Shown here: positions 10,901 through 52,824 of the stretch, piece after piece
How the letters are laid out: each line of letters begins with the position of its first letter
Numbering within the stretch: the first letter of the stretch is position 1
NCBI GenBank assembly: GCA_030427085.1
Contig: JAUHXH010000003.1
Location: forward strand, 62,001-126,000
DNA length: 64,000 nt
Source: Gammaproteobacteria bacterium
GTDB lineage: Bacteria > Pseudomonadota > Gammaproteobacteria > Pseudomonadales > Halieaceae
Direction: 5' to 3'
Notes under the pieces: generated by a model
Databases searched by the model: none
Told to the model about the DNA's origin: nothing
What the model saw: only the letters and a program-made list of their open reading frames with translations
Made by a program: the position numbers and the translations under genes

Positions 10901-11038
10901 CGCGGCACACTGCACCAGAACGCTCAGTACATCCTCCACCATGGCCTGCGCCAGAGCACGACGCTCGCTGGGGCTTAACACACTTGCCAGGCGAGTCTTG
11001 GCAGCCGCCAGATCCTTCAGGGGCAGAACTACTCGCAC
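7934..11038 (-). CDS. Trifunctional CofC-CofG-CofH fusion (F420 guanylyltransferase and FO synthase)
   Basis: Fusion of three F420 enzymes. Residues 1 to about 205 are CofC/FbiD-like ([42 protein letters not shown]), the guanylyltransferase that activates a three-carbon acid. Residues about 235-590 are CofG, with radical-SAM cysteines C265/C269/C272 (LCRDVCHYC). Residues about 635-1010 are CofH, with C679/C683/C686 (VCYFKCRFC). CofG and CofH together make FO from tyrosine and the 5-amino-6-ribitylaminouracil pathway intermediate. I choose GTG 11038 ([10 protein letters not shown]), overlapping cofD by 10 bases; GTG 11080 would add 14 non-conserved residues. Actinobacterial FbiC joins only CofG and CofH. 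The CofC-CofG linker contains a palindromic repeat. Confidence 0.93.
10386..10408. repeat. REP-like palindrome inside the CofC-CofG linker
   Basis: AGGGG, TCTGT, CCCCT (10386-10400) followed by AATTTAAG. On the coding strand this reads TTAAATTAGGGGACAGACCCC and is translated in frame as LKLGDRPL, just after the CofC domain. From memory, GGGGACAGACCCC palindromes recur as dispersed intergenic repeats in gammaproteobacterial genomes. Only one copy was noticed here, so repeat status is an inference. Confidence 0.5.
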
Positions 11039-11979
11039 GACACACGCCCGACCTGGTCCAGCACGAACTGCGCCAGACACTGCTTGCTCTCGCGATCTTT
11101 CATCACGGTGTTCGTTACCCCCACTTCCACCCCTGTGGCTTCTCTTATCTGCGGCGCCAATTCGGCGTCGCTGTCGTCCAGTATGAACATATCCAGCAAA
11201 TTGCCATAGTGCCGGGCCACTTCCAGCGCGGTCACCGGCATCTGTAACTCCCGCATCATTTTAGCAGTGGGCCCCTTGATGGCCTGCCCCGCCACAATGG
11301 GCGATACCGCGATCACAGGTGCCGCGCACTGAACCAGCGCCTCACGATACGCTGCAATAGAGAGGATGGGGTCGATGCTAACGAAGGGGTTGGAAGGGCA
11401 GATCACCACGGCTTGCAATGAAGGGTCCTGCAGCGCCGCAATTGCCGGGGGATGCGGGCGAGCCACATCGCTGCCGGAAAAACTGAAGCCAGTCACGCGC
11501 GGCTCACACTGTCGCCCCACGAAGTAATCCTGAAATGAGAGGTCCCCTGCTTCGCTGTGGACAACCGTGGCCACGGGATCATCACTCATGGGCCAGAGCT
11601 GCGTGTGCAGTTGATGGGTGTCCGCCAGCCCCGCCGTCACTGCACTCAGGCTCGCGCCGGCGCGCAATTGCCCGGTGCGTAACAGGTGTGTGGCGATGTC
11701 CTTGTCGCCCAGGCGAAACCAGGTGGCGCCGCCTATGGCCTCAAGCGCTTCCATGGTGTGCCAGCTTTCACCTTCCAGCCCCCAGCCTTGCGTGGGGTGG
11801 CTGCGGCCGGACAGGGTGTACAACAAGGTGTCCAGGTCGGGACTGATATGCAGTCCGAGATGTTCAAAATCGTCTGCGGTGTTGACCAGCACACCGAGTG
11901 CGCCGGGGGGTAGAACATCCATCAGGCCTAAACAGAGTTTGGCGCCGCCCACTCCGCCAGATAAGGCAAGCACCTTCAT
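11029..11979 (-). CDS. cofD: 2-phospho-L-lactate transferase CofD
   Basis: Transfers the activated three-carbon phosphate moiety from the CofC product to FO, giving F420-0 or dehydro-F420-0. The start is ATG 11979 (MKVLALSGGVGGAKL), whose GGVGGAKL loop is the CofD signature. Also visible are NTADDFEHLGLHISPDLDT, FRLGDKDIATHLLRT and the C-terminal ICPSNPFVSIDPIL and SPIVAGQAIKGPTAKMM. 316 aa is normal. The reading frame extends upstream to 12090 but that part overlaps cofE and is not conserved. It lies 14 bases after cofE and overlaps the cofCGH start. Confidence 0.95.
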   Translation of the reverse strand: MKVLALSGGVGGAKLCLGLMDVLPPGALGVLVNTADDFEHLGLHISPDLDTLLYTLSGRSHPTQGWGLEGESWHTMEALEAIGGATWFRLGDKDIATHLLRTGQLRAGASLSAVTAGLADTHQLHTQLWPMSDDPVATVVHSEAGDLSFQDYFVGRQCEPRVTGFSFSGSDVARPHPPAIAALQDPSLQAVVICPSNPFVSIDPILSIAAYREALVQCAAPVIAVSPIVAGQAIKGPTAKMMRELQMPVTALEVARHYGNLLDMFILDDSDAELAPQIREATGVEVGVTNTVMKDRESKQCLAQFVLDQVGRVSCE

Positions 11980-11993
11980 TTCGCTGGCGCCAC

Positions 11994-12761
11994 TCACCGG
12001 AACAAATCCACGGCGCGGTCCCGCAACAGAGCACCGCTCCCCGCCTCTGCCGCCGGGAAGTGAAAGCCCCGCACCAGTACTATCGGGCAAGCTTCCGCCG
12101 CCTGCCCCATCACCAGCGACGCGGCCGCGGCCAGTTCGTCGGCCACCGCCGGCTCGGTTACTTCCAGCCGGCGCCCGTAGAGGTCGGTTTCACCGATCTG
12201 GTTGTGCAGTACAGCAAAGCCCGCCGAGCCCAAGGTAATGCCCACGGTGCCGTTGCGCCAGGCCCGCCCGGCGCTGTCGTTGATCAATACGCCCGGTGCT
12301 ACACCACAGGCATCGCGCAAAGCTGTTCGCAAGCGCGCGGCGGAGGCATCCGGGTCCTCCGGCAGCAACAGCACCTGATCCCGGCCCGCCGCGTCCGGAA
12401 TGTTGGATTTATCGATACCGGCATTGGCATGCACATAGCCATTGCGATGTTCTACCACGATGACCCCGGGACGGCTGCGCAGCACCTCCCGCGACTCACG
12501 CAGAATCAGCTCCACTTGTCGGGGGTCTTTGTCGGTAGATTCTGCCAGCGCCATGGCCTCTTCGCCGGGCGTGACCTCGTCGAGCACCACATAGCGCCCT
12601 TCCGCTTTGGAAACGATCTTCTGCGCCAGTACCAGCACGTCGCCCGCTTCAAGGACCAGACCATTGTGTGCCAGCGATGCCGACACCAGTGCAGCCAGGT
12701 CATCCCCCGGCTGCACCAAAGGAAAATCCCGTAGCCCGATCAGTTCGAGCCGGCGCGTCAT
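11994..12761 (-). CDS. cofE: F420-0:gamma-glutamyl ligase CofE
   Basis: GTP-dependent ligase that adds gamma-linked glutamates to F420-0. Family blocks include DVLVLAQKIVSKAEGR, NGYVHANAGIDKSNIP and GVLINDSAGRAWRNGTVGIT. The 255-aa length equals a stand-alone CofE. The C-terminal nitroreductase-like domain of actinobacterial FbiB, which reduces dehydro-F420-0, is absent. ATG 12761 overlaps the npdG TGA (ATGA), indicating coupling. Confidence 0.94.
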   Translation of the reverse strand: MTRRLELIGLRDFPLVQPGDDLAALVSASLAHNGLVLEAGDVLVLAQKIVSKAEGRYVVLDEVTPGEEAMALAESTDKDPRQVELILRESREVLRSRPGVIVVEHRNGYVHANAGIDKSNIPDAAGRDQVLLLPEDPDASAARLRTALRDACGVAPGVLINDSAGRAWRNGTVGITLGSAGFAVLHNQIGETDLYGRRLEVTEPAVADELAAAASLVMGQAAEACPIVLVRGFHFPAAEAGSGALLRDRAVDLFR

Positions 12762-13444
12762 TCCACCGGGTCCAACCCGGAGATGCGAATGCCCGCGTGA
12801 CACTTGTACTGACGGTTGATGGTGATCAACACCGAAGTCAGGGCTTCTGCCGCCGCAGCATTGTCGATGGGCCCGGCGTGGAAGCCGCGCATACCGGCCG
12901 CCTCCACCAGCGTGATGACCTGCGCACGGGCTTCCTTGTCGTTGCCGCAAACCAGCACATCGCAATCCACACCAGCACCTTCCTGAAGATGGTGAGCTGC
13001 CACGTTCTGGAAAGCGGATACCACTGCGACCGATTCACCCAGCAGGTTCTGGGCAATCTGCCCGGCGCTGCCCCCCTGAGGAAGTTGTACTCGCCCCACC
13101 TTCGGTGGCACCAGCGGTACGGTCACGTCGATCAGGATTTTGCCGGCCAGCGCTGGCTTAACCTGCTCCAGGGTGCTGGCCTGATGACTGAAGGGGACGG
13201 TGAGCGCCACGATATCCGCCGCCTCGGCAGCGGCCAGGTTTTCCATCGCCTGAACAGAGACTTCCCCCACGCCGCGCTCGGCCATAATCTCGCGCAGATC
13301 CGCCACCGCCGCGTCAGCCTTTTCCAGTGTGCGCGACCCCACAATCACCTGGTAACCCGCCTGTGCCCAGCGCCGCGCCAAACCGGTACCCAGGTCGCCC
13401 GTTCCACCCAATATCGCCAGTGTCGGCAGTGATTCGATCGTCAT
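12758..13444 (-). CDS. npdG: NADPH-dependent F420 reductase NpdG
   Basis: F420H2:NADP+ oxidoreductase family: exchanges hydride between NADPH and F420 and so links the F420 pool to central metabolism. The Rossmann motif ILGGTGDLGTGLARRWA is at the N-terminus. VGSRTLEKA, the NADP-phosphate-binding strand, and the C-terminal GFHAGPIDNAAAAEALTS are characteristic. ATG 13444 gives 228 aa; the open frame continues upstream without conservation. First gene of the F420 operon. It is the only F420-using enzyme recognised here, so client oxidoreductases must lie elsewhere. Confidence 0.93.
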   Translation of the reverse strand: MTIESLPTLAILGGTGDLGTGLARRWAQAGYQVIVGSRTLEKADAAVADLREIMAERGVGEVSVQAMENLAAAEAADIVALTVPFSHQASTLEQVKPALAGKILIDVTVPLVPPKVGRVQLPQGGSAGQIAQNLLGESVAVVSAFQNVAAHHLQEGAGVDCDVLVCGNDKEARAQVITLVEAAGMRGFHAGPIDNAAAAEALTSVLITINRQYKCHAGIRISGLDPVE

Positions 13445-13521
13445 AGTCTGATTCCTTCGTGAGCTGCGCACGGGGAAGTACCCGCACGGCTGCGGTGCAG
13501 CGGATTTGCTATTGCCGAGGC

Positions 13522-13550
13522 ATAGTAAGTAAAAGGATTGGCCCCCACAA
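13522..13550 (-). promoter_or_regulatory. Possible sigma-70 promoter of the npdG-cof operon
   Basis: Minus strand: TTGTGG (13550-13545), 17-base spacer, TACTAT (13527-13522), about 75 bases before the npdG ATG. Each hexamer matches the consensus at four of six positions. Confidence 0.4.
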
Positions 13551-13733
13551 GGCACCATCGCGGTGCACAAAAAGCGACCAGCGGGACCTGATCATATAGC
13601 TAAACCACAATACGTCCACGGCGGGCAAGTTCGGGAATGTTGTTTCTGCCAGTCAGTAGGTATACTGCCCGAGGGAACTCAGGGAAGGGGCCCATCAAGC
13701 ATAACAAGCCGCCAAGGTAGGTTCTAACCCAAT

Positions 13734-16700
13734 ATGCCAGAAGTACAAGCCTTTACAGTGTCGCAGGCCGCAACACTGGAACTGGAACAGTCTGCCCACC
13801 TGTCGGGCACCGTCAGCCAATGGCGTGAAGCCGGATTGGATCTCAGCTCGGTCAAAGTACTGCGCGGCTCACAGACCAGCGGCAAGATCAGCCTGGTTGC
13901 GGGCACCCCCGGCACCCTCCAGTTTGAGGGGCTGTTCGACGATGAAGGCGCGCTACCGCCACTGGAGGTGTCGGTGCGCAATGCCGCGGGGACAACCCTG
14001 CAACTGGAATTCATGGCGGGCCAACAGGCCATCGTGGACCGCATTTCACGCGCACTCGGCTTCGACACAAGTGACGATACAGGCGACGACACCGCGCCTG
14101 AACCACCCCCGCTGCCCAAAACCGGGCGCGGCGTAGACCAGAATGCACTCGACTATCTGCGTGAAAGCGCGGACAAGGAACTGGGCACACGCTATCGCCA
14201 GTTCCTGGTCAAGCTAACCGATCACCTGTTCGACCTGTCCAACATTGAAGGCACCGCCTCCGGCTACAACCGTCACTATGAAGTGATGAACCTGGTCAAG
14301 CGCGGCAGCGACGACATCGCCGCCCACTTTCTGCGACTGATCGACGAGGGCTTCGATCGACTCCTGCAGCAAGACCCAAACCGGAATGACAGCGATGCCA
14401 CCGACGCCGATACCGACCTGAACCTGGTCGACCTGAATGAATTCGAAGACCACCTGGCCATTGCCAAAATCATCAAGACCGGCGAGAACCTGCATGGTCC
14501 CGCACTGGAGTGTCTGACGCTGCGGCTGGCGGAAATCGTGGACCAACCGCCTGAGCTGGTGCGCCTGCCCATCCACGTGGCCCCCATCTGCCGTGCGATG
14601 CGCGATTCGCTGTCGTCGCTGGAGATCGCCACTGACATCGTAGTGGAAGTACAGGATTTGTTTGTGGAAGCGATCCTGCGCGAACTGGGTGACTACTACG
14701 AGCAGGAAAACCGGACGCTGAAAAAGCTCGGCTTCGCGCCCAACGTGGAAGAAGAGATCAAACGCCACGGTTCCATTCTCAAACGGCGCAAAGAGGAACC
14801 AAAGCGCAAACCACCCTCTGAGCCCCCCGCCGACACGAACGAGCCCACAACCGAAGCACCCCAGGAAACAACAGCACCTGCTACCGAAACCGCGGCACCG
14901 GCCAGCGGGTCCGCCACTGGAGCGCCGGCCACAACCGCTGCGCCCGCCGCTGGCGGTGGTGCACCGGGCGGGTCACTCAATCCCGACAGCCTGTATCAGT
15001 CGGTGATCGACGCACTGAACTTCCGCCGGGAAGCCGAATCATTGCAGGCCCGCGGTGTGCCCCTGGATGAATCCACCGGCGCAGCGGCAAGTGGCTTCAG
15101 TGGCGAGGAAGGTAGCACGGCCACAGCCGCAGCTGACACCAACACCAATCCCGCTGACGCCGCCGCCATCGCCCAGGCCCTGAATGCCTTGCAGCGCGAC
15201 CAGCAGGCCCGAGCCTCGCTGAATACTCAGGGCTCACTACGCGAATATCTGGCCAAGAACCAGGCCAGCATGTCGGGTCTGGAAGGCACCACCGGGCTGG
15301 CCGCAGACACCCTCAACCAGATCGATCTGGTCGACAACCTCTTCGGCAGTATCCAGTCGCAACTGGATGTCACCGCCGAATTGCGCCCCGCCCTGGGAGA
15401 CCTGCAAATTCCACTGGCACGACTGGCGCTGCTGGAGCCGCAGTTTTTCCTCAACCGCGACCACCCCGCTCGCGGCGTCATTGACGCCCTGGCGCTGCTG
15501 TCAAACAGCGCCAACTACCCCAACAAAGCACTGGAAAATCGTGTCCAGGGCATCGTTGATGACATCGTCACCAATTACGACAGCGACAGCGACATCTTCG
15601 ACCGCGCCCTGCAACAGGTGGACCGGCTGGTCAACCAGCAGGAGCGTGCACTGGCCCGCAACGTGGAACGCGTGGTCAAAACCGAGGATGGCCAGCAGCG
15701 TCTGCAGAAAGCGCAGCTTGCAGTAAACCGCATCGTTCGCACCCGCATCCGCCCACCCGCCGCACCCACGGTGCTGGTAGACCTCATTGAAAGCGGCTGG
15801 CGCGATCTGCTGGTGCTGACCCACATCAAGCAGGGGCCGGAGAGCAAGGGCTGGAAGGATCAGGTCAAGTCTCTCGACCTGCTGTCCCTGTGGTTGATCG
15901 AGCAGCAAAAGGGTGACCTGGACGAAGAGATCCTTGTGCAGCGGCAACTGGAGGCGGAGCCCTTCATCGACATGCTGCAGCAGCAGATCTCCTCGGCCCT
16001 GCCCACCAACGTAGCCCACGTTGAAGTACTGCAAACACTGCGCGATGTGTTGGCCGGCCGCCTGCCGATTGCCACCACCCGCATTTCCGATACTGAAGGC
16101 GCTCCCCAACCGAAACCGGAAGAAATCCGCGCCAAAATCGACACCCTGCCGCGCCTGCGCCGCTGGGTACGGCGGGTTGAGCAACTGGAGCTGGGCACCT
16201 GGCTGAACTACAAAAACCGGGAAGGCCACAAGCGTCGCATGCAACTGGCCTGGGTCAGTGAGGAAAAAGACCGCTACATATTTGTTAATGAACGCGGCCA
16301 GAAAAACGCCGACCTGACCTCGGTACAACTGGCCCGGCAACTGAGCAAAGGGGTACGACCGCCTCCGCCGTCCGACCAGATGTCGCTGGTGGACCAGAGT
16401 ATGTACACCACGCTGGAGCACGTACAGAAGTCACTGAGCTTCGCCAACAACCACGATTCCCTGACCAAGCTGATCAATCGCGAGACCTTCGAAAGCCAGG
16501 TGGATCGCGCCCTGCTCCACGCCCAGCGCCGGCAGTCACAACACGCATTGATGTTCCTCGACATCGACCAGTTCGAGCTGGTGAACGACGTCTACGACAC
16601 CAGCACCGGCGACCTGGTACTGACCGAGTTCGCACGCCTGCTGGCCCAGCTCCACGGCAAGAAAACGTCATCCGCGCGACTGCAGGACGACGAGTTCGGC

Positions 16701-17753
16701 GTGTTGATGCTGGATCGCGATCCGGAACAGGCCGTAGCCGCCGCGGACCGGATTCGCTCCGACATCAACGCCAGTTCGGTTGATGTGGACGGCGAGAAAA
16801 TTCTGTTCAGTGTAAGCATCGGGGTTGCCCCCATCCTGCCCCACAGCCCGCCGGTGCCCGACCTGCTGGAGCACGCCGAAACCGCGATGCGACTGGCCAA
16901 GTCCGCCGGCCGCAACAGCGTGGCGCTGTTCACCGAAGACCAGCGCGAGATTGAAGAACAGAAACGCCAGCAGGCCGCCACCATCGCCGAGTTGGAACAC
17001 ACCATCGAAACCGACCGCTTCATTCTGCGCGCACAACCCATTGTGCAAACCTCGGTGGACGACGGCGCGCCGGTGGCGAACCACTTCGAAATTCTGCTCG
17101 GCCTGAAAAACAGCGACGGCACCCTGTCTTCACCACAGGAATTTATTCTGGCGGCGGAACGCTACGGCTACATGACCCAGGTGGACCGCTGGGTAGTGCG
17201 CGAAACCTTCAGCTGGATCAGCCACCTGATGGACGCGCAAAAAGAAGTGCCCTACTTGTCCATCAACATCTCCGGCAACAGCGTCACCGACGACGCCTTC
17301 ATGGAATTCCTGCTGGAACAAATCTCCGACTGGGGCGTGGGCACCAGCAAGCTGTGTTTCGAAATCACCGAAACCGGCACGATTACCAACCTGGTAAAAG
17401 CCGCCGATTTCGTTCGTGCCTTCCGCAATATCGGCTGCCGCTTCTCGCTGGACGATTTCGGCACCGGACTGGCATCGCACAACTACCTGCGCGAACTGCC
17501 TGTGGATTACGTGAAGATCGACGGCACCTTCATCACCAACATCAGCGAAAACCGCAACGACTACGCCATGGCACGCTCGATCAACGACCTGGCCCACTTC
17601 CTCGGCCAGAAAACCATTGCCGAGTCAGTGGAGAACGAAGCGATCCGCGATGTGCTGAAGGAAATCGGCGTGGACTACCTGCAGGGCTGGGGCGTGGGTA
17701 AACCGCGGCCGCTGGATGAAATTACTGAAGAGTTGTCTAGTTTGGAGAAGTAG
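13734..17753 (+). CDS. DUF1631 protein with degenerate GGDEF and EAL domains
   Basis: Large cyclic-di-GMP-related signalling protein (1339 aa) with no membrane segment. Residues about 1-105 form a beta-rich N-terminal domain. A DUF1631-type helical region is split by a Pro/Ala/Thr-rich linker (about 350-410). GGDEF spans about 906-1065 and EAL about 1092-1335. GGDEF retains DSLTKLINR and DIDQFELVND, but the active-site loop reads LQDDEF instead of GGDEF, so cyclase activity is unlikely. EAL keeps its key acids (FEILLGL, DDFGTGLASH, KIDGTFI, IAESVEN), so phosphodiesterase activity is possible. It is divergent from npdG; a -10-like TATACT (13661-13666) lies upstream. Confidence 0.9.
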   Translation: MPEVQAFTVSQAATLELEQSAHLSGTVSQWREAGLDLSSVKVLRGSQTSGKISLVAGTPGTLQFEGLFDDEGALPPLEVSVRNAAGTTLQLEFMAGQQAIVDRISRALGFDTSDDTGDDTAPEPPPLPKTGRGVDQNALDYLRESADKELGTRYRQFLVKLTDHLFDLSNIEGTASGYNRHYEVMNLVKRGSDDIAAHFLRLIDEGFDRLLQQDPNRNDSDATDADTDLNLVDLNEFEDHLAIAKIIKTGENLHGPALECLTLRLAEIVDQPPELVRLPIHVAPICRAMRDSLSSLEIATDIVVEVQDLFVEAILRELGDYYEQENRTLKKLGFAPNVEEEIKRHGSILKRRKEEPKRKPPSEPPADTNEPTTEAPQETTAPATETAAPASGSATGAPATTAAPAAGGGAPGGSLNPDSLYQSVIDALNFRREAESLQARGVPLDESTGAAASGFSGEEGSTATAAADTNTNPADAAAIAQALNALQRDQQARASLNTQGSLREYLAKNQASMSGLEGTTGLAADTLNQIDLVDNLFGSIQSQLDVTAELRPALGDLQIPLARLALLEPQFFLNRDHPARGVIDALALLSNSANYPNKALENRVQGIVDDIVTNYDSDSDIFDRALQQVDRLVNQQERALARNVERVVKTEDGQQRLQKAQLAVNRIVRTRIRPPAAPTVLVDLIESGWRDLLVLTHIKQGPESKGWKDQVKSLDLLSLWLIEQQKGDLDEEILVQRQLEAEPFIDMLQQQISSALPTNVAHVEVLQTLRDVLAGRLPIATTRISDTEGAPQPKPEEIRAKIDTLPRLRRWVRRVEQLELGTWLNYKNREGHKRRMQLAWVSEEKDRYIFVNERGQKNADLTSVQLARQLSKGVRPPPPSDQMSLVDQSMYTTLEHVQKSLSFANNHDSLTKLINRETFESQVDRALLHAQRRQSQHALMFLDIDQFELVNDVYDTSTGDLVLTEFARLLAQLHGKKTSSARLQDDEFGVLMLDRDPEQAVAAADRIRSDINASSVDVDGEKILFSVSIGVAPILPHSPPVPDLLEHAETAMRLAKSAGRNSVALFTEDQREIEEQKRQQAATIAELEHTIETDRFILRAQPIVQTSVDDGAPVANHFEILLGLKNSDGTLSSPQEFILAAERYGYMTQVDRWVVRETFSWISHLMDAQKEVPYLSINISGNSVTDDAFMEFLLEQISDWGVGTSKLCFEITETGTITNLVKAADFVRAFRNIGCRFSLDDFGTGLASHNYLRELPVDYVKIDGTFITNISENRNDYAMARSINDLAHFLGQKTIAESVENEAIRDVLKEIGVDYLQGWGVGKPRPLDEITEELSSLEK

Positions 17754-43054: not shown

Positions 43055-43528
43055 TCAGGTTGGGTCCTGGTAGTTTTGATCAGGCGCTGGCGTTTCTACC
43101 GTACCCGGGGACTCGCACAGAAACGGTGTTCCCTTCCGTGACGCGTGGTACGAATACTCCGAGCCAGCGGTGCGAAGCACGATGTGCACGCCAGGCGACA
43201 AGACCATCAGGTAGCCACGATCCGGCTTGGGGCAGCCGAGAGCACTTGAGCGCCAGGTTACGTATTCCGCTCGCATGACATCAATATCTTCGGTGTCGGG
43301 TGTTTTCGAACCGCGACGTTCGCGCAGGTCGGTGATGGCTTGCTCGACCATCGCCAGTAATTCCGCATTCAACGGCCTTTGTGTGTTCAATGCTTCACCC
43401 TCCGCAGCGGCCGGCGTGTCACCCTTGGTCACATGCAGTTGTACCCCTGTCATCAACTCTGCATCGTCCGGCGTTTCTGAAACTTCAACCCCGCAAGCTG
43501 ACGAGGCGAAAGCAAGCAGCACAAACAT
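43055..43528 (-). CDS. Putative lipoprotein of unknown function
   Basis: 157 aa. ATG 43528 gives a short signal MFVLLAFASSACGVE with a lipobox-like SSAC; a GTG at 43564 is also possible. The C-terminal half, WRSSALGCPKPDRGYLMVL followed by SPGVHIVLRTAG and YSYHASRKGTPFLC, resembles a small module I have seen in other exported bacterial proteins with a paired Cys pattern, but I cannot name it. No neighbouring gene gives a functional clue. Confidence 0.55.
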   Translation of the reverse strand: MFVLLAFASSACGVEVSETPDDAELMTGVQLHVTKGDTPAAAEGEALNTQRPLNAELLAMVEQAITDLRERRGSKTPDTEDIDVMRAEYVTWRSSALGCPKPDRGYLMVLSPGVHIVLRTAGSEYSYHASRKGTPFLCESPGTVETPAPDQNYQDPT

Positions 43529-44029
43529 CCCTTTATAAAGGCACGATGCCACGCGGCCTAACACCGCACAATTGCAATCATAGACAGAGAAATATATCCC
43601 ACGGATCGCCTCCCTTCGCTGTGAACACGGATTTTCATAATAGGCGTTGGCCGATTACATTGCGATATCGATGCGCTGAATCTCTCTTATCCAGCGTTAC
43701 CTCTGCTCATGGATCATGTGCGCACTTGCCCCCGTTCACTGTCAGCTTTTTTTACAGTGCGTCCAGAATCGTTCCCGCCCCATTATTCAACCGTCTGTTT
43801 TTATTCAACAATTTGTTTCTGGCGCGATCCTTGCGTGCTCAAAACCAGACGATAAAGATTACTTTGAGTCGGTAGACAAGGCTGCGAATGGGTGTGGACA
43901 AGTTGGCCGATGGGACACTATTTGGCCAATAAGAGTTAGCTGTCGTGTCACGAGACTCAAGGTTAGTTGTTCTTATCGCTAGTACTTCAGCTTCTTTTTA
44001 CTAGTCAAATACTGATATTGGGGTGCACT
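43529..44029. other. Intergenic region without a recognisable gene
   Basis: About 500 bases, more AT-rich than its surroundings, between the divergent lipoprotein gene and the cohesin-like gene. It contains a TTGGCCAA palindrome near 43924. No convincing coding frame, promoter hexamer pair or RNA gene was identified. Confidence 0.5.
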
Positions 44030-44647
44030 TTGATTAAGAAAATATTACGTCGTGTTTCGGAAGCGGTATGTCTTTTAGCCCTGAGCGGGTCTGTTCATGC
44101 TACGGCCATTTTCCTGGAGCCGGTTGAGCAGTTTATTGACCTTGGCGTGGGATTCACGCTGGATGTAAACGTCTCCGGGCTCGGAGCCGGTTCTGCGCCC
44201 TCACTCGGGGCGTGGGATATCGATTTGACCTACGATCCAACCGTCGTCACTCCCGTCGCTGTATTGTTCGGCGATCCGGTACTAGGCAACCAGTTGGATT
44301 TGTTCGGCTTCGGACTAAATCCTGTAGGCGGTGGCATATCAGCCCCAGGGGTACTGGATATTTTCGAGATATCTCTCGATTTCCCTGATGACCTAGACTT
44401 GTTCCAGGCCGATGCCTTTACCCTGGCGCAGGTGACCTTTGCCACTATTGCCAAGGGTGTCAGTTCACTCTCTATCAGCGACGCTTTACTGAGCGATTCC
44501 CTCGGTGGCGAGATTCCAGTCCTTTCAATTGGGTCCGCCCGAGTGAAGGTGGTGCCTGTACCTCACACACTGGCGCTCTTCGCAGTCGGTCTTTTCGGTT
44601 TACATCAGCTGCGACGCGCAAGGCGTCAGCGCTTCGCAAAGACGTAA
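44030..44647 (+). CDS. Cohesin-like domain protein with PEP-CTERM-type anchor
   Basis: 205 aa from TTG 44030 (MIKKILRRVSEAVCLLALSG). A signal peptide ends near VHA. The body matches a cohesin-type beta-sandwich: FIDLGVGFTLDVNVSGLG, LGAWDIDLTYDPTVVTPVAV and FTLAQVTFATIAKGVSSL. The C-terminus VPVPHTLALFAVGLFGLHQLRRARR is a PEP-CTERM-like sorting tail (short motif, hydrophobic helix, Arg cluster), predicting exosortase processing and surface display. The next gene carries a dockerin, so the two may bind. The start codon is uncertain; a good terminator follows. Confidence 0.72.
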   Translation: MIKKILRRVSEAVCLLALSGSVHATAIFLEPVEQFIDLGVGFTLDVNVSGLGAGSAPSLGAWDIDLTYDPTVVTPVAVLFGDPVLGNQLDLFGFGLNPVGGGISAPGVLDIFEISLDFPDDLDLFQADAFTLAQVTFATIAKGVSSLSISDALLSDSLGGEIPVLSIGSARVKVVPVPHTLALFAVGLFGLHQLRRARRQRFAKT

Positions 44648-44649
44648 AG

Positions 44650-44690
44650 TCGCCGCGCGACTAGACCACCTTAAAGCGGCGATTTTTTTT
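44650..44690 (+). terminator. Rho-independent terminator after the cohesin-like gene
   Basis: TCGCCGC (44650-44656) pairs with GCGGCGA (44676-44682) and is followed directly by eight T residues (44683-44690). Confidence 0.75.
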
Positions 44691-44741
44691 CGCGTTATGG
44701 CGACTCAGAAAATGCCCCCCCATCCCCCGCGTGTGGGGTAG

Positions 44742-44817
44742 TGCCGGTCGAGAAATCACCGGCAAATTCCTGTACCAACCCCTTTGTGGGTTGGCGCAGT
44801 TTGAGACTCATCGAGTC
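44742..44817 (+). promoter_or_regulatory. Three consecutive hairpins in the subtilase leader
   Basis: TGCCGGT/ACCGGCA (44742-44764), CCAACCC-CTTTGT-GGGTTGG (44775-44794) and GACTC-ATC-GAGTC (44805-44817) lie in tandem upstream of the subtilase ATG. There is no T-run. They could be operators or a structured 5' leader. Confidence 0.4.
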
Positions 44818-44873
44818 AGGCTTTGATCGGCAGACTCTGTCAAGAACAACGAAATAGCCCGAGGACACTCGCT

Positions 44874-47800
44874 ATGATCCGTAAGTTGGCAACGATTACC
44901 CTATCACTGGGTTTAACTTCTGCAGTAATAGCAATAGCTTCTGATACACCAACGCCGTCGGGAGACCCCGATGTAGCATTCCTCCAACGAACCACAGCCA
45001 AGAACGTCAACCCCAACCGCAGGCCCCACCAGGACCTGCAGGGAAATGGGGAGGTGTCCCGCTACATCGTTCAATTCGAGGGCGATGCGGTACCTCTGGC
45101 ACTCGCCAAACTCTCGCAGCGAGGCCAGCAACAGCCCGACGGCTCGAGTGACACCGTGGATATGTCCTCGTCGGCAGCCCAACAACAGATCAGTACACTG
45201 CAAGGCGAGCAGGGTGCAATTCTCGGAAGAATTTCCTCGGAAGCGGGGTCAGTCGAGATTCTGCGCACGCACCAGCGCGCACTGAACGCCGCCGTTATCA
45301 GAATGTCAGCTGTGACCGCCCAGCGGGTGCAGAACATTCCCGGCGTATTGGCAGTGGAGCGCGATCAGGCAGTAGAACTGAGCACGCCAGACAGCGTACC
45401 GTTTATCGGTGCGGACCAGCTGTGGGACGGTAGCGCTACCAGCGGAACCCCCTACCTCGGGGAAGGTATCGTTGTCGGCATCATCGACAGTGGTATCAAC
45501 CATGCACACCCCTCATTCGCAGCGACAGGTGCTGACGGGTACACAGTCGTTAACCCACTCGGTGACGGTAACTACCTGGGCGAATGCGTCTCCACTCCGG
45601 CGCTGTGTAACTCCAAACTTATTGGCGCGTACACGTTTCTCGACGCACAAACCAGCACTCCACCTGATGAGATCCTGCTACCCGGTGATACGCCCTCGAG
45701 AGATACGGACGGCCACGGTTCCCATGTGGCTTCAACCGCAGCTGGCAACGTGCTGTCTAACATTGCCCTCCCCGACGCCGACGGCAATCCGGGGTCCATC
45801 GTATTCGGCCAGGTTGCCGGCGTGGCACCCCATGCCAACCTGGTCGCCTTCAAGGTCTGTGCACCGTCATGCTTCTTCTCCGACATCGTCGCCGCTGTCG
45901 ATCAGGCAATCGCCGACGGCGTGGTCGATGTGCTGAACCATTCCATTGGCTCGCCTGCGGGTAGCCCCTGGGCATCAGCGCAGGCAACGGCTTTTCTGAA
46001 CGCGCGCGCAGCTGGCATCTTCGTGGCTAACTCCGCCGGGAACAGCGGCCCGGGCGCAGGCACCGCAGAGGCCGCCGGCAATGCACCCTGGGTGGCGGGC
46101 GTTGCGGCAACAACCCATGACCGTTCCTACCCGTCGAAGTTTCTACAGGACATGACTGGCGGCGATACCACACCACCGGCTGACATCACCGGCGCATCCG
46201 TATCCGGTGGCATCACCGGCGACATCGTGTACGCAGGTGACTTCCCCACCGCTAACGGCAGCGCCAATGACACGCAACCGGAGCAATGCCTGGACCCATT
46301 CCCTCCCGGTACCTTCACAGCGGACCAGATCGTGCTCTGTGATCGCGGCAGCATCGCGCGAACCGCCAAAGGGCAGAACGTGCGTGACGGTGGCGCCGGT
46401 GGCTTTATCCTCGGCAACTTGTCTGGTGGTGCCACGTCGGTGAACGCTGATTCACACGTGATCCCCGCAATACACATCGATTCTGACGATGCTGATGACA
46501 TGCGCACCTGGCTCGCCACCGGCACTGATCACGTGGGCACCATTACGTCCGTCGATACCGCTGTCACAGATCCTGCAGCGGGCGATAACCTGGCTGGTTT
46601 CAGCTCCCGCGGCCCCTACACCGGCTTCGACATTCTGGCACCAAACACGGCGGCACCCGGTTCCGATATTCTGGCAGCGGGTGCTGAATTAACGCCGGCG
46701 CAGGTTGATCTAATCGGCATTCTCTACGCGGGCACCCCCTCTGAGAATCCATCCGTTCCCGGAGATTTCGGCGCTATTGGCGGTACATCCATGGCAAGCC
46801 CGCACATCGCCGGCACCGCGGCGTTGCTCAAGCAGGCGCGTCCGGGTTGGTCTGACGCGGAGGTCCTCTCAGCAATCATGACCACTGGCACGTGGGATCT
46901 CGTCAAGGAAGATGGCGTCACCCCAGCTGACCCCTTCGATTTTGGTGGCGGTCGGGTCCGGGTGGATCAAGCCGTGAATGCTGGCCTGCTGCTCGATGAG
47001 ACCAGCAGTAATTTTGAAGCTGCCGATCCCGCCCTTGGCGGCGATCCTGCAACCCTCAACGTCGCCGGTCTGGTGAAACAGAACTGTGTGCTCGAATGCT
47101 CCTGGACCCGTACTGTGAAAGCCACAGATGGCGGTTCCTGGACGACTTCAACCTCTGATCCCAGCATCAGTGTCAATCCCACCAGTTTCAGTTTGGCGGC
47201 CGGTGAAACACAGGTGCTCGAGGTCAGTGTCAATGCTTCTGGCCTTCCGACCGATGTATGGGCTCACGGGCGGGTCAATCTTCTGCCTGCTGCCGGCCCC
47301 GATCAACATCTGACAGTGTCCTTTGTGCCCACTGGCGGCGAGGTGCCTACAGAACTGGAGATCACCGCCAGTCGAGATGCGGATTCTTTCCTGGTCCAAG
47401 GCCTCATGTCGGTTGAGATCACCGATATGCAAGTTGCTGTCAATGGCTTCGTGGCACCGACAGAGACTGCTATGAGCCTGGATCAGGACAGCGATAACAG
47501 CACACCCTATGATGACCCAACAGACGGTGCGGACTTTGTCCTTGTCCCGATTCCGGGTGGGGATATCCGCTTCGTTGCTTTCACTGAGGATGCGACTACG
47601 GATTCGCCCGACCTCGATTTGCGTGTCGGTTTCGATGCTAACGGAAACGGCGTGCCGGAAGATTTTGAAGAGATCTGCATCAGCGCTTCAGCATCTTCCA
47701 ACGAGACTTGCGACATTTCGGGTTCCGCGCCTCCTGGAAACCTGTGGGTATTGGTGCAGAACTGGCAATCGTCAGCAACACCGCCAGACAATGCGATTCT

Positions 47801-49241
47801 GAGTACTGCTCTGATCGCCGGTGACGCGGGTAATGTAACCGTTGACGCACCCACTACAGTGCCACAGCTGACACCTTACGATGTCCGCCTGATCTGGGAT
47901 CTGCCCCCTTCAGACGTTGGGGACCGTTTCTTCGGCTCGGTAACCCTGGGATCGGACGCGTCTAATCCCGGTAACATCGGCACGATCCCTGTGACGATTG
48001 TGCGCGGACCGGACGATGTCATGTTCGAGGTCAGCGATGTAATGCCGCAGGCCGGCGATACACTCACCTTCTCGATTGAAGTGGCGCCGAATCTCACGCC
48101 AGAAGATCGGAACTACACTATCGATGCTGCGATACCGGCCGGCTTTACGCTCGTACCCGGGTCGATCACCGGTGGTGGAACCGAATCTGGCGGTGTAATC
48201 AACTGGGGCGTTTCCCAGCCATCGCTGCTCGGCACACCCCCGACTTACGACGTGGTAACCAGCAATGATAACGCGGCCTGTGCGGCGCCATTCGCCAACA
48301 GCGGTGGTTATGTCGACCTTGAGGCATTCGCCATCTACCCGGATACCAGCGTCGTTGGTGACACGGTTACCTTTACTGCCTTCGGTGGTCAGAACTTCAA
48401 CTTCTACGGTGAGACCCTCACCGGTGGGTTGAATTTCACGGATGACGGCTTTGCCTTCTTCGGTGATCCGGCGGCAACGGGTCCGCTCCCGTTCATTAAT
48501 CAGCCCATTCCGAGTGTTGCTGACCCCAACAGCCTGATGGCGGTACTGTGGCGGGACTTCATTATCCCGACGCCTAGCACCACACCAGGGTCAGTGGTTG
48601 GGGTCTCCCTCGCCACTGCCGGTCCCGATCTGTCGATTATCGAATACGACAATCTGGAATCCTGGCCCGGTGGCGGCGGTGACAGCATCGACATCCAGGT
48701 GGCTATCCGCGGCGCAGCGAATAACTCACCAGACGTCTTTGAGATCATCTTCGCCTTCGATAACGTCAACGATGGTGGCAATCCATTCGGTACGATTGGC
48801 GTAGAAGACGCAACCGGGACGAACGGTACCCAGTACGCGTTCGACAACGTGGCTGTCACCGACGGTATGGCGATCTGCTTCGATCTGGCCGGCCCGTCGC
48901 TGGATCCGGTGGTGCTGACCTATCAGGTTACCGTCGATCCAGGAACAGAGGGCAGCACCATCACCTCAACCATGGAGAACGATGTCGATAGCGTGGGCGC
49001 AGAATTGGTCACTGAGACCATTGATGTAGAAGTTGGTTTGCCCCCGATCCCGGGTGATGTGAATGGTGACGGTGTGGTCGACCGCGCGGACCTCAATCTG
49101 ATTCTTGCGGCTCGCAATCAACCCGCAACCGGACCAGATGATCCTCGCGACATGAACGGCGACGGCGTGATCAACGCTCTGGACGCTCGCCTTCTGGTCC
49201 TTGCCTGCGATCTCCCGCGCTGCGCGACGCCAGTGCCCTGA
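44874..49241 (+). CDS. Secreted S8 subtilase with PA insert and C-terminal dockerin
   Basis: 1455 aa. ATG 44874 follows GAGGACACTCGCT and opens a signal peptide (LATITLSLGLTSAVIAIAS). An I9-like propeptide (RYIVQFEGDAVPLALA) precedes the catalytic domain. Asp205 (GIIDSGINHAHP), His281 (DTDGHGSHVAS) and Ser639 (GGTSMASPHIAG) form the triad. A PA domain is inserted at about 443-563 (ADQIVLCDRGSIARTAKGQN). Fn3/beta-rich modules follow, including a nidogen-like stretch (DDGFAFFG). Residues about 1392-1455 are a type I dockerin with two calcium loops (GDVNGDGVVDRADL, DMNGDGVINALDA). Dockerins bind cohesins, and a cohesin-like gene lies upstream. Probable extracellular protein degradation. Confidence 0.92.
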   Translation: MIRKLATITLSLGLTSAVIAIASDTPTPSGDPDVAFLQRTTAKNVNPNRRPHQDLQGNGEVSRYIVQFEGDAVPLALAKLSQRGQQQPDGSSDTVDMSSSAAQQQISTLQGEQGAILGRISSEAGSVEILRTHQRALNAAVIRMSAVTAQRVQNIPGVLAVERDQAVELSTPDSVPFIGADQLWDGSATSGTPYLGEGIVVGIIDSGINHAHPSFAATGADGYTVVNPLGDGNYLGECVSTPALCNSKLIGAYTFLDAQTSTPPDEILLPGDTPSRDTDGHGSHVASTAAGNVLSNIALPDADGNPGSIVFGQVAGVAPHANLVAFKVCAPSCFFSDIVAAVDQAIADGVVDVLNHSIGSPAGSPWASAQATAFLNARAAGIFVANSAGNSGPGAGTAEAAGNAPWVAGVAATTHDRSYPSKFLQDMTGGDTTPPADITGASVSGGITGDIVYAGDFPTANGSANDTQPEQCLDPFPPGTFTADQIVLCDRGSIARTAKGQNVRDGGAGGFILGNLSGGATSVNADSHVIPAIHIDSDDADDMRTWLATGTDHVGTITSVDTAVTDPAAGDNLAGFSSRGPYTGFDILAPNTAAPGSDILAAGAELTPAQVDLIGILYAGTPSENPSVPGDFGAIGGTSMASPHIAGTAALLKQARPGWSDAEVLSAIMTTGTWDLVKEDGVTPADPFDFGGGRVRVDQAVNAGLLLDETSSNFEAADPALGGDPATLNVAGLVKQNCVLECSWTRTVKATDGGSWTTSTSDPSISVNPTSFSLAAGETQVLEVSVNASGLPTDVWAHGRVNLLPAAGPDQHLTVSFVPTGGEVPTELEITASRDADSFLVQGLMSVEITDMQVAVNGFVAPTETAMSLDQDSDNSTPYDDPTDGADFVLVPIPGGDIRFVAFTEDATTDSPDLDLRVGFDANGNGVPEDFEEICISASASSNETCDISGSAPPGNLWVLVQNWQSSATPPDNAILSTALIAGDAGNVTVDAPTTVPQLTPYDVRLIWDLPPSDVGDRFFGSVTLGSDASNPGNIGTIPVTIVRGPDDVMFEVSDVMPQAGDTLTFSIEVAPNLTPEDRNYTIDAAIPAGFTLVPGSITGGGTESGGVINWGVSQPSLLGTPPTYDVVTSNDNAACAAPFANSGGYVDLEAFAIYPDTSVVGDTVTFTAFGGQNFNFYGETLTGGLNFTDDGFAFFGDPAATGPLPFINQPIPSVADPNSLMAVLWRDFIIPTPSTTPGSVVGVSLATAGPDLSIIEYDNLESWPGGGGDSIDIQVAIRGAANNSPDVFEIIFAFDNVNDGGNPFGTIGVEDATGTNGTQYAFDNVAVTDGMAICFDLAGPSLDPVVLTYQVTVDPGTEGSTITSTMENDVDSVGAELVTETIDVEVGLPPIPGDVNGDGVVDRADLNLILAARNQPATGPDDPRDMNGDGVINALDARLLVLACDLPRCATPVP

Positions 49242-49260
49242 TCGCTGTTCCCAGTACTCA

Positions 49261-49294
49261 AAGGGTGTGCACGTAAGTGCACACCCTTTTTTTT
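49261..49294 (+). terminator. Rho-independent terminator after the subtilase
   Basis: AAGGGTGTGCAC, loop GTAA, GTGCACACCCTT: a 12-bp perfect stem running into a T-run (49287-49294). Very strong. Confidence 0.9.
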
Positions 49295-49437
49295 GCTACC
49301 GGAAAATCAATTCGTCCAGCAGCCCGTGACTTCAGCTTCATGAATAAACTATATACATATTGCTAGTTGGAGCAGTAGCCCGGCGCTCGGGTATAACTTC
49401 ATTGTGGATCATCAATTGCAATGGAGAGGACAAGACC

Positions 49438-50148
49438 GTGGCCACTACTGATCGAAGACGCAACCTACCAGGAACCACCTTAGCGCGATGGGTTATCGCC
49501 GCCCTGTTGACGGTGACGATGGTCGTGCCGGCGCACGCCACCTTGATCGAACTCGTTCTCGACGTGCCCTCGGGCTTCGACCTGTCCCTGAATGGCGCAC
49601 CGGCCGCCCCCAGCGGCCATGTTACGGTGCGCGGGATACTGGACAATACGCTCCCCGAATTCAGGAGTGGCGGATCGGACTACGGCTATTTTGTCGTGAA
49701 TGAGATGTACTTCAGCGCGAGCAACTTCGGCATTGTGGATCAACTGGTAGTAACTTCTCATGACCCGCGTACCCTGGCATCGTCACTGCAGATCGCTCCC
49801 GATTTTTTTCGCCTGCATTTTAACGGCGGCGGTGGCTCGGGGGTTGGCCTGAGTGGCGGCACGCTCCCCACGGACCTGATGAGCGATGTAAACGATTTGT
49901 CCACATTGCCCATCGGTACGCATGCTTCCTTCAGCTATGCTTATGGTGTTAACGACTCGCCCAGAACGGGCATGCTCCTAACGCTGGCTTCCGGCGACAC
50001 ACTTGATGGGGTTGGGGGATCTGGAGTGTTTAGTGCCGGTGGGACACTTTCGGTGAACGCCTTCAGCGAAGTACCGGTGCCCGCGGCGCTGTGGCTGTTT
50101 GCCTCGGGCTTACTAGGGTTGTTCGGTATCAGGCGCAAATTGAACTGA
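49438..50148 (+). CDS. PEP-CTERM/VPLPA-type exported protein
   Basis: 236 aa from GTG 49438, preceded by GGAGAGGA. A signal peptide (WVIAALLTVTMVVPAHA) leads to a beta-rich, Gly/Ser-rich body with no recognised domain. The C-terminus VPVPAALWLFASGLLGLFGIRRK is a classic VPxPA sorting signal with hydrophobic helix and basic end, predicting exosortase-dependent export. Function unknown; probably an exopolysaccharide-associated surface protein as proposed for this class. Confidence 0.8.
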   Translation: MATTDRRRNLPGTTLARWVIAALLTVTMVVPAHATLIELVLDVPSGFDLSLNGAPAAPSGHVTVRGILDNTLPEFRSGGSDYGYFVVNEMYFSASNFGIVDQLVVTSHDPRTLASSLQIAPDFFRLHFNGGGGSGVGLSGGTLPTDLMSDVNDLSTLPIGTHASFSYAYGVNDSPRTGMLLTLASGDTLDGVGGSGVFSAGGTLSVNAFSEVPVPAALWLFASGLLGLFGIRRKLN

Positions 50149-50164
50149 CCATTTAATGGCTCAG

Positions 50165-50749
50165 CTACTGCAGGTCTGTACCGGTATCCAGCAGTATATA
50201 TACCCCGATACCGACCATGATAAGGCCGGGTAAATAATGCATAACGCGGCCCGGCTTTCCAAATCGCCGTAACCGGCGGGACAATTTCAGTATTAACCCA
50301 AGCCAGGCGCCCACGGCAACGACAAAGCCTGCGACGATAACAATTATTACGCCAGGCTCGCTTTCGGCGATCAGTGGGCCGAATACCAGCATTGTGTCTA
50401 CGCTGTTCGAAAGCAGCAGCACTGCGATGGCCCAGGTAGACGGTGCCGCCACCGCCGCCTGATCCGTTTCAGGCACGGACTGCAGGAGAACTCGCATCCC
50501 CAGAACTATCGGCAGCACGCCAAGATAACCGAGTGCACCAACCGGCAGGATCAGGGTAAACGCCGTAAAACAGAGGCAAACAACCAGTACCAGAACACTC
50601 GCGAGCAGAAAGCCGGAAATCACCGACCGTCGCTGCGGGTGGGCCGCAGTGATAGTCCCCAGCACCAGCAGGTTATCGAAATTCGTAGCCGCGTATGCCC
50701 CTATGATGAGCAACAGCGCACTTGCGATATCTATTTCACTCACAGGCAT
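50165..50749 (-). CDS. CadD-like cation transporter
   Basis: 194 aa, about six membrane helices, of the CadD/LysE-type superfamily. The N-terminal AYAATNFDNLLVLGTITAA corresponds to the conserved CadD motif with an acidic residue in helix 1. NSVDTMLVFGPLIA in the second half is the repeat counterpart. Family members export cadmium or related cations. It is convergent with the PEP-CTERM gene and divergent from the outer-membrane protein gene. Substrate not determinable. Confidence 0.75.
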   Translation of the reverse strand: MPVSEIDIASALLLIIGAYAATNFDNLLVLGTITAAHPQRRSVISGFLLASVLVLVVCLCFTAFTLILPVGALGYLGVLPIVLGMRVLLQSVPETDQAAVAAPSTWAIAVLLLSNSVDTMLVFGPLIAESEPGVIIVIVAGFVVAVGAWLGLILKLSRRLRRFGKPGRVMHYLPGLIMVGIGVYILLDTGTDLQ

Positions 50750-51750: not shown

Positions 51751-52824
51751 CTACGCGTATGTCTTCCGGAAGTCGGCGGGCGATGTCCCCGTCGCATTGC
51801 GAAAGGCGCGGGCAAAATTTGATGCGTCGGTGTAGGTGAGTTCCGAGGCTATCTCAGCGATTGATTTATCAGAGCTGGACAGCCATTTGCTGGCCAGTTG
51901 AACGCGAGCGTCGCTGAGGATTTGCTTGAAGCTCGTTCCATTATCGGCCAGGCGTCGTTGCAACTTGCGCGGGTTCATGCCCGCGGCTTCAGCCGTAACT
52001 GCAAGGCTCGTCGTACCCTCATGTAGCAGGGAGTCGACCAGAAACTCTATAGAACTTAAAAAACTGTCCGGGAAAGGTGGCACATTCGGCTCGCTTGTAC
52101 CGCGAGCCGGGAGCTTCGTAGTGCCATATGTAGTGCCATATGTAGTGCCATAGCTGGCGAGTGGTTTGAGCAACACAGATCGCCCCAGAGTCAGGGAAGA
52201 ATGGGCAAGCCCTGTCACTATTTTTCCGCCATGGGCAGATGCCCAATCCGCCAGTAGCGTATCGGTGCCTGTGCGTAATCCAATCTCGGTGGGGTTCCAG
52301 TCCGGCCCGATCATACCCCGCAGTGTATTAATGGTCAGTATCAGGGAATAGCCGTCGGCAATGGCAGGTCCAAGACCGCTGCCTCCGGCCAATACCTGAT
52401 TGATGCGTACGTCGTCCCCCTCTTCCGCCAACCAGTAGGTCAGGCCACGATTCTCCAGTGTGGAAATAAACCGGGAGCCTGTCTTCAGGTAGCCCTGTAC
52501 GTTGGCCGACTGCTGCAGGTTACGCCCGAATACACCGAGGTCGAAGGCCGAGGTCCTCTCTGCCACTTGTATGCCAAGGTCGGGCAGGTCTTCCCCGGTG
52601 GCCACCAGTTCGAGGAAGCGATAACCAGAGTGCAGCGACACCATGCCAGCCGGATTGGCAAGTTGCGTTAGTGGCAGGTTGGCCCGAAGCAACCACGGTT
52701 CTGCCGGACGGCCGGTGTCGTCAAGAAAGGTGATAAATGGGAATAACGAGCTGCTGCGTACGAAGGGTATCGGCGACGAACAGCAACAGCGGCGAGTTCC
52801 GGGCGGAGCGGATAATTGATCCAT
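51751..52824 (-). CDS. AraC-family transcriptional regulator
   Basis: 357 aa. The N-terminal about 220 residues form the 'arabinose-binding' sensor domain common in OruR-like regulators (ANPAGMVSLHSGYRFLEL). The C-terminal about 95 residues hold the two helix-turn-helix units: SLAVTAEAAGMNPRKLQRRL and KSIAEIASELTYTDASNFARAF, ending GTSPADFRKTYA. Start ATG 52824. The interdomain linker contains three YGTT units encoded by a 12-bp tandem repeat. Copies of a 51-bp element flank the gene, suggesting control of the neighbouring barrel, of DUF3604 and of itself. Confidence 0.88.
   Translation of the reverse strand: MDQLSAPPGTRRCCCSSPIPFVRSSSLFPFITFLDDTGRPAEPWLLRANLPLTQLANPAGMVSLHSGYRFLELVATGEDLPDLGIQVAERTSAFDLGVFGRNLQQSANVQGYLKTGSRFISTLENRGLTYWLAEEGDDVRINQVLAGGSGLGPAIADGYSLILTINTLRGMIGPDWNPTEIGLRTGTDTLLADWASAHGGKIVTGLAHSSLTLGRSVLLKPLASYGTTYGTTYGTTKLPARGTSEPNVPPFPDSFLSSIEFLVDSLLHEGTTSLAVTAEAAGMNPRKLQRRLADNGTSFKQILSDARVQLASKWLSSSDKSIAEIASELTYTDASNFARAFRNATGTSPADFRKTYA
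52118..52152. repeat. 12-bp tandem repeat (3 copies) in the AraC linker
   Basis: GTAGTGCCATAT repeated three times, the last copy lacking its final base. It encodes YGTT three times in frame on the minus strand. Copy-number change would alter linker length by four residues without a frameshift. Confidence 0.85.

Follow-up and report, generated by a model that had tools for sequence, protein, structure and literature searches.

In a 64,000-nucleotide stretch of a Halieaceae genome (Gammaproteobacteria bacterium, assembly GCA_030427085.1, contig JAUHXH010000003.1, positions 62,001 to 126,000; the window hereafter) we describe two neighbouring genes of the forward strand, one coding for a small cohesin-like protein with a sorting-type tail, and the other for a large S8 subtilase that ends in a dockerin. 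We propose, and consider it probable, that the cohesin, sorted by an exosortase, keeps cargo that carries a dockerin moored to the cell surface or within the matrix, the two constituting a mooring module of one cohesin and one dockerin. The cohesin protein would be exported, its C-terminal tail would be processed by the exosortase, and the processed protein would come to lie on the outer surface or within the exopolysaccharide matrix. The subtilase, synthesised with an I9 propeptide, would be secreted separately and retained at that site by the dockerin at its C-terminus; the two loops of this dockerin are expected to bind calcium, and a disulfide probably stiffens it. Other bacteria use both families again, with unrelated cargo. 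We infer the cohesin-dockerin binding itself, its calcium need, the disulfides, the exosortase cleavage and the final location; a direct interaction is supported by the adjacency of the genes, by the matched types of the partners and by the changing cargo.

The cohesin and the subtilase of the window

The cohesin gene (44030-44647, plus strand, 205 amino acids, TTG start) and the subtilase gene (44874-49241, same strand, 1455 amino acids, ATG start) were found at about the positions given by a sequence-only reading of the window, which had placed a cohesin-like sandwich upstream of a dockerin-bearing secreted protease. A signal peptide, recognised by eye, occupies about residues 1-24 of the small protein, and the predicted cohesin beta-sandwich follows at about residues 25-174 (44102-44551). 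Pfam alone misses the pair: the small protein scores 18.0 bits against Cohesin (PF00963), under the cut-off of 24.1, at E <= 0.001 this model finds nothing in the window's genome, and a search of 97 relatives gave matches in 6 genomes only. Family profiles were therefore needed, and the cohesin and tail assignments, both scoring under Pfam cut-offs, were tested by other means.

A profile made from a 13-row alignment of the cohesin family (A4) gave 20 matches at E <= 1 among PDB sequences, and 19 of these carry a label or an entry title that marks them as cohesin modules; the best solved cohesins, 1g1k (E 7.9e-6) and 2vn5 (E 1.2e-5), are matched over most of the domain, and the single non-cohesin match, an Ig-like protein, reaches rank 1 via four short weak stretches. 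The best of five AlphaFold2 models, made from eight sequences, has a mean predicted local distance difference test (pLDDT) of 79.3 (68 to 71 for the remaining four) and a predicted TM-score of 0.71. With this model as query against PDB, Foldseek found 100 matches at E <= 0.001, and cohesin entries make up 50 of the 50 matches listed; with VIA-align they make up 49 of the 50 listed, a count that takes in 2o4e, titled merely as an interaction module, and the top match (Z 16.9) is the C. perfringens cohesin 2vo8. By predicted fold and by profile, then, the small protein is a cohesin, and structure prediction, which the sequence-only reading had named as the check able to refute this fold, returned it.

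The subtilase comprises an I9 propeptide, an S8 domain (127.6 bits) with a PA insert and with catalytic triad codons at 45486 (Asp), 45714 (His) and 46788 (Ser), and a C-terminal dockerin (49053-49238) with two F-hand loops, whose first aspartates are encoded at 49056 and 49149, and a CxxxxC tail. Dockerin_1 (PF00404) scores 33.4 bits here, over its cut-off of 22.9; alignments and a model (pLDDT 82.3) give two calcium-type loops plus two helices, and rows 1-31 of the Foldseek search are all dockerin entries, 2y3n_B in row 1 being the only one at E <= 0.001. Pfam, the triad and the fold search thus bear out the earlier description of a large secreted S8 protease with a two-loop C-terminal dockerin; 'type I', as this dockerin had been called, is the name of the Pfam family, and the entry that contains the nearest solved dockerin, 2y3n_B, names a type II complex in its title. 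Tails of 15 S8 homologues in relatives were viewed: the gene end lies inside the locus in 12, in whose last 80 residues no dockerin was seen, and the other three are cut (L051, L055, L059), among them the closest homologue (G031, 58% identity).

The window's genome (G000) has two Dockerin_1 matches. The second belongs to a protein of 1540 amino acids whose C-terminal part matches TSP3 and cadherin-like domains (3985-8607, minus strand, in locus L215, G000:C1:232500-242500), and its gene is overlapped by one for a 304-residue protein that looks lipoprotein-like by eye and has no Pfam match (3074-3988, minus strand). This pair is possibly a lipoprotein-anchored variant of the same mooring idea.

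Recurrence of the pair, matched types and changing cargo

The dockerin profile (A1) was built from homologues of the protease tail, and the cohesin profile (A2) from homologues of the small protein and one row met via a Pfam search; rows of both were picked without regard to adjacency. Dockerin tails of this type, further called type A, occur in 8 of 97 relatives, and in 6 of the 8 a cohesin gene lies no more than 2.2 kb away (G000, G047, G045, G056, G071, G079). The distance is 12.7 kb in G006, and in G007, where the type-A dockerin sits on a glucose/sorbosone dehydrogenase protein (L140), no cohesin was found nearby. A cohesin search with the single protein matched 11 of the 97 genomes, of which 7 were used as cohesins; those in G024, G036, G026 and G013, being tail-only or other PEP-CTERM proteins, were excluded by eye.

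When the search was extended to 341 genomes of the order, 10 gave a strong dockerin match (E <= 9e-16), each with a strong cohesin on the same contig within 2.2 kb, and 6 of these 10 genomes had not been used for the profiles. Strong cohesins, taken as those over 90 bits, were counted in 11 of the 100 genomes matched, the eleventh (G092) being without a dockerin partner. The weaker cohesin rows listed are mostly sorting tail only; the matches in G145 and G248 (46 and 37 bits) cover most of the cohesin domain and adjoin other dockerins. Six dockerin matches (E 1.8e-6 to 8.6e-4) were excluded as other types. The score lines of this search were set after the scores were seen, and the cuts at class level were stricter (1e-6 for the dockerin and 1e-9 for the cohesin). 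With these, among 369 genomes of the class, the dockerin was found in 14, 13 of them new, and the cohesin in 20. Of the 13 new ones with the dockerin, 12 have a cohesin match within 2.5 kb; the thirteenth, G733, has a 35-bit cohesin 11 bp from the dockerin gene. Under a rough model of random placement, the probability of 12 or more in 13 is 1.4e-31. That an unrelated beta-sandwich stands by chance beside a calcium-binding tail, as the weak Pfam cohesin score taken alone would allow, is thus extremely improbable, given the fold searches and an adjacency repeated in new genomes, and the class-level search speaks strongly against it.

Among named genomes the dockerin was met in at least 11 loci, which are a sample, and a cohesin adjoins in 7 of those 11: an Ectothiorhodospiraceae metagenome-assembled genome (MAG), Paraglaciecola, Methylomonas sp. 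LW13, Roseateles, Desulfobacula, Methylibium and a Burkholderiales MAG, the last having two tandem cohesin/dockerin pairs. In the culturable Methylomonas strain (L149, NZ_CP033381.1) the dockerin gene occupies 8384-10177 of the locus and the cohesin gene 10272-10877. No adjoining cohesin was found at L146, L151, L153 and L156; beside L151 the 870-bp gap was inspected in three forward frames and none was seen. The pairing of cohesin and protease, guessed formerly from one locus, is therefore backed by co-location in genomes outside the profile sets, and further by the matched subtypes, promoter layout, exosortase and PrsR described below. Relatives of the window's genome also have cohesins of other layouts, at G006:C14:595670-598058 and in G024, G025, G036 and G049 (L006, L016, L029-L036): a scaffoldin-like 1516-residue frame with two cohesin matches, and very long frames that combine a cohesin and a dockerin-like stretch in a single chain.

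Altogether 38 dockerin open reading frames of the type were collected, and a cohesin is present in the fetched stretch for 34; omission of L087 (12.7 kb apart) and of one of the two tandem L150 pairs leaves 32 close pairs. The two genes share a strand in 31 of the 32, and gaps under 130 bp between them are common. The cohesin gene stands upstream of all 8 genes with an N-terminal dockerin and of the one with a mid-chain dockerin, and downstream of 18 of the 23 with a C-terminal one (Fisher p 1.6e-4 for N-terminal against C-terminal). As the dockerin-coding end usually faces the cohesin gene, it looks as though they were transmitted as a single cassette. In L193 (G628, 6828-16993) a single cohesin gene lies between two dockerin genes, both dockerin ends facing it, whose products are of 613 amino acids (C-terminal dockerin) and 2458 amino acids (N-terminal dockerin). 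A TolB- or WD40-like gene of about 350-405 codons, recognised by eye, adjoins a dockerin protein of about 590 residues in L080, L135, L150 and L155, with the cohesin PEP-CTERM gene close by. The dockerin repeat protein of L083 (G071, 3401-11998) is split into two adjoining frames of 849 and over 2000 amino acids that keep the same reading frame, by an in-frame stop or an assembly error.

Cysteines of the dockerins go in pairs. Of the 38 rows, two of which are identical copies, 26 have both the N-terminal cysteine and that of the DARxC motif and 12 have neither, 36 have the CxxxxC pair and 2 lack it, and so both pairs are concordant in 38 of 38. This suggests, from the residue pattern, that dockerins of the type carry two disulfides; that of the window has the second pair (CxxxxC) only.

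Cohesins without a type-A dockerin were also found, and several of them adjoin a dockerin of another kind, type B, with GPSG-like end motifs after TSP3-like repeats (read by pattern at L145, L207, L209, L210, L211 and L213). In a tree of 42 cohesins, which takes in both L150 cohesins and leaves out L087, the six type-B cohesins and two partnerless ones form one group with an SH-like approximate likelihood ratio support of 98, and a single change on the tree, the minimum possible, accounts for the A and B labels; the tree was made by a quick method, and 18 of its 39 inner branches are under 80. Cohesin and dockerin distance matrices correlate with r 0.34, a value reached in 40 of 10000 permutations. 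The genome with the lone dehydrogenase dockerin, G007, has a type-B cohesin and dockerin pair in L213 (G007:C23, 5099-8068).

What the dockerin is attached to varies widely. Of the 38 dockerin proteins, 30 were scanned with Pfam: S8 subtilases make up 2 (the window and G695), IgGFc_binding proteins 4, proteins with an LTD and an endonuclease-type domain 3, glucose/sorbosone dehydrogenases 2, and proteins with Ig, PKD or cadherin repeats 4 (one below cut-off); single cases are a GDSL lipase, BNR repeats (below cut-off), an NHL repeat, a Reg_prop propeller, an alpha/beta hydrolase, a beta-helix with cytochrome c and a carboxypeptidase-regulatory-like protein, and the other 8 have the dockerin alone or no Pfam match whatever. 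The LTD and Exo_endo_phos-type proteins of L138, L139 and L202, with a C-terminal dockerin and beside a cohesin gene, are likely extracellular nucleases; related nucleases elsewhere bear other sorting tails at the C-terminus. The varied cargo means that the cohesin/dockerin module is not tied to proteolysis, and the reuse of both families with unrelated cargo suggests a cargo-agnostic display device rather than a complex that degrades a single substrate.

This bears on a reading in which the cohesin does bind the dockerin but acts as a periplasmic escort or inhibitor that shields the cell from the protease or guides its secretion. Safe export of a secreted protease may call for a partner, and the weak PEP-CTERM character of the window's tail leaves surface delivery not assured; we nevertheless hold this explanation to be unlikely, as partners elsewhere are mostly not proteases, so that a protease-specific role cannot explain the family, and the window's protease already has an I9 propeptide. 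For a wider form of the mooring proposal we see about even chances: that this is a widespread Gram-negative display device, indifferent to its cargo, whose cohesin gene and dockerin-coding end would travel as a small cassette that could be added to nearly any gene for a secreted protein, at either end, with at least two specificity classes, A and B; the exosortase would put the cohesin in the matrix, the cargo would be moored there non-covalently and perhaps reversibly, and in some species PrsR and sigma-54 would be in control.

Sorting tail, exosortase and transcription

The small protein ends with a sorting-type tail (44552-44644) made of VPVPH, a hydrophobic stretch that is helical in the model, and RRARRQR. 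Against PEP-CTERM (PF07589) it scores 17.8 bits, under the cut-off of 20.7, and TIGR02595 is absent among the matches of the protein at E <= 1; by eye the protein has the PEP-CTERM features, that is, a signal peptide, a VPxP-type motif, a hydrophobic helix and a basic end. The surface-sorting tail named by the sequence-only reading is accordingly PEP-CTERM-like in layout, though it has no literal PEP.

The window's genome encodes an exosortase (PF09721, 246.4 bits, on G000:C7) and, about 20 kb from it, the regulator PrsR (TIGR02915, 699.9 bits, cut-off 502.6). A full-length exosortase, defined as a match that spans model positions 5 to 249 or more, occurs in 13 of 14 cohesin genomes and, with G007 set aside, in 13 of 35 hand-picked others (Fisher p 4e-4), an association not fully independent because the cohesin profile includes the tail; the sole cohesin genome lacking it, G176, is 74% complete. 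PrsR passes its cut-off in 12 of 12 cohesin genomes tested and in none of four other genomes, which are weak controls because they were known beforehand to lack an exosortase, and in none of 14 standard control genomes. One may suppose that the tail remains unprocessed, with the cohesin staying in the inner membrane and the whole module in the periplasm, since VPVPH replaces VPEP here and some tails of the family diverge further (VSSP, for example). We give this only a slight chance, as throughout the family VPxP variants are found alongside clear VPEP tails, and the exosortase, PrsR and the PEP-CTERM promoter layout are all present.

A second PEP-CTERM protein (VPVPAALWLFASGLLGLFGIRRK) is encoded directly past the protease gene (49360-50148, plus strand); it scores 21.2 bits against PF07589, over the cut-off, and matches the PepA flocculation family weakly (33.1 bits, cut-off 80).

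Upstream of the cohesin gene there is a region of PEP-CTERM type (43751-43834, plus strand), in which TTTACA (43751-43756) is followed, after a 63-nucleotide spacer, by the sigma-54-like TGGCGCGATCCTTGC (43820-43834). The arrangement is unique on the plus strand of the window, with one more on the minus strand near 62.3 kb, and it arose in 5 of 2000 dinucleotide shuffles of the 465-nucleotide upstream region. It agrees with the promoter layout described for PEP-CTERM genes, TTTACA and a sigma-54 site with an average spacer of 62.8, in the part of Haft et al. 2006 concerned with it (PMC1569441). Under looser rules applied to the 34 pairs, with no chance control, an exact TTTACA with a sigma-54-like site was met 5' of the cohesin in the window, L087, L081, L082 and L196, the last two by sigma-54 matches with 3 mismatches.

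The arrangement was not found before the protease gene, and the intergenic gap of 226 bp holds a terminator-like hairpin (44646-44690, plus strand; 11-bp stem, 19-nucleotide loop) that stands just past the cohesin stop codon and runs into T8. Its stability has z -1.69, 13 of 200 shuffles being at least as stable, and a terminator scan allowing loops of 3-8 does not list it. Joint transcription is for these two reasons doubtful, and the genes may not be one operon. The scan gives an intrinsic-terminator-like hairpin with a T run after the protease gene (49260-49289, plus strand), and Rfam gave nothing at gathering scores over 43500-50300.

The sigma-54-type arrangement before the cohesin gene only, and the hairpin between the genes, would fit a reading in which the genes are linked merely by a shared surface or matrix regulon, the dockerin binding another cohesin or the proteins never meeting. 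To this we assign a low probability. In the window's genome a single match was obtained with the first dockerin profile and three with the cohesin profile A2, the other one among the matches listed covering the tail end only; A4 gave one there at E <= 1e-9. The subtypes of cohesin and dockerin correspond across genomes, and the short gaps mentioned above are common.

Several results weigh against the mooring proposal. The window's tail is without a literal PEP, and both tail and cohesin domain stay under Pfam cut-offs; among the ten family members scanned the tail passes in four (L080, L084, L134, L135), the cohesin in one (L083, 26.7 bits), and three have no tail match. Four dockerins of the type (L146, L151, L153, L140) are without a cohesin in the fetched stretch, some near contig ends, and cohesins without a recognisable dockerin nearby are found in G092, G513, G509 and as one of the two in G599. 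The mirror-tree correlation given above is modest and uncorrected for species relatedness. The window itself is one of the 5 exceptions in gene order, having a C-terminal dockerin and the cohesin upstream. Lone sigma-54-like sites are frequent (the window has 108, and 95 are expected), among 13 cohesin upstream regions scanned the window's alone stood out, and the hairpin together with the lack of a sigma-54-type arrangement at the protease means that expression of the two may be uncoordinated.

Relation to known systems and neighbouring genes

Anchoring scaffoldins of Gram-positive cellulosomes, such as Ruminococcus flavefaciens ScaE and Clostridium thermocellum OlpC and OlpA, are likewise surface cohesins that receive a dockerin partner, and their structures (2zf9, 4dh2 and 3ul4, respectively) are among the structural matches of the window's cohesin. 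Gram-positive scaffoldins are anchored by sortase or SLH. The window differs from them in its PEP-CTERM-like tail, in a genome with an exosortase, in the absence of a multi-cohesin scaffoldin and in the protease cargo. The sequence-only reading had called the system non-cellulosomal, which a single cohesin in the small protein and a protease as its partner confirm. By analogy, we infer that the module would work like the surface-anchored cohesins of Gram-positive cellulosomes, yet without a cellulosome.

Peer et al. 2009 reportedly described cohesin and dockerin modules outside cellulosomes. Such folds in C. perfringens (2vo8, 2jh2, 2ozn) and Archaeoglobus fulgidus (2xdh) stand outside cellulosomes as those of the window do; the C. 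perfringens modules 2vo8 and 2w1n are by title parts of glycoside hydrolases, and unlike them the family described here has a separate PEP-CTERM-like cohesin, many cargo types and two concordant dockerin cysteine pairs. For anaerobic methanotrophic (ANME) archaea and their sulfate-reducing partners, cohesin/dockerin proteins were proposed to serve adhesion or extracellular assembly (PMC5244752, PMC9012536, PMC10553843), and archaeosortase or exosortase domains were counted in ANME genomes (PMC5244752); in the passages of these accounts that concern such proteins, the cohesin is tied neither to PEP-CTERM nor to a type of promoter, nor to a conserved unit of two genes whose cargo changes.

The tail type, exosortase, PrsR, and the layout of TTTACA and sigma-54 site are shared with the PEP-CTERM/EpsH/PrsK-PrsR-PrsT system, as far as the relevant part of its description goes (PMC1569441), whose main text has zero occurrences of cohesin or dockerin, and where the function of PEP-CTERM proteins was left open. 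The flocculation PEP-CTERM protein PepA affects, according to the portion of the report concerned, exopolysaccharide binding to cells (PMC9850573); it is a different protein from the window's cohesin, which matches the PepA model weakly (22.7 bits, cut-off 80). In open-licence papers, a scope outside which most subscription journals fall, we found none joining a dockerin, or a cohesin domain, with PEP-CTERM, and none with cohesin, dockerin and PEP-CTERM together; cohesin, dockerin and exosortase were met together in one paper only, on methanotrophic archaea.

If our proposal is true, some PEP-CTERM proteins gain a job, as receptors for other proteins, which they would retain at the surface or within the matrix, and Gram-negative bacteria would have a counterpart of the surface-anchored cellulosome cohesins, of which no description was found in that literature. 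Partners would then be predicted for many unannotated gene pairs, and the short, possibly disulfide-stiffened cohesin-dockerin pairs may be usable as display tools.

Further downstream in the window, a minus-strand gene (51751-52824) that appears by eye to encode an AraC-like regulator contains a short tandem repeat with a 12-bp period (52124-52150), which in the protein repeats GTTY.

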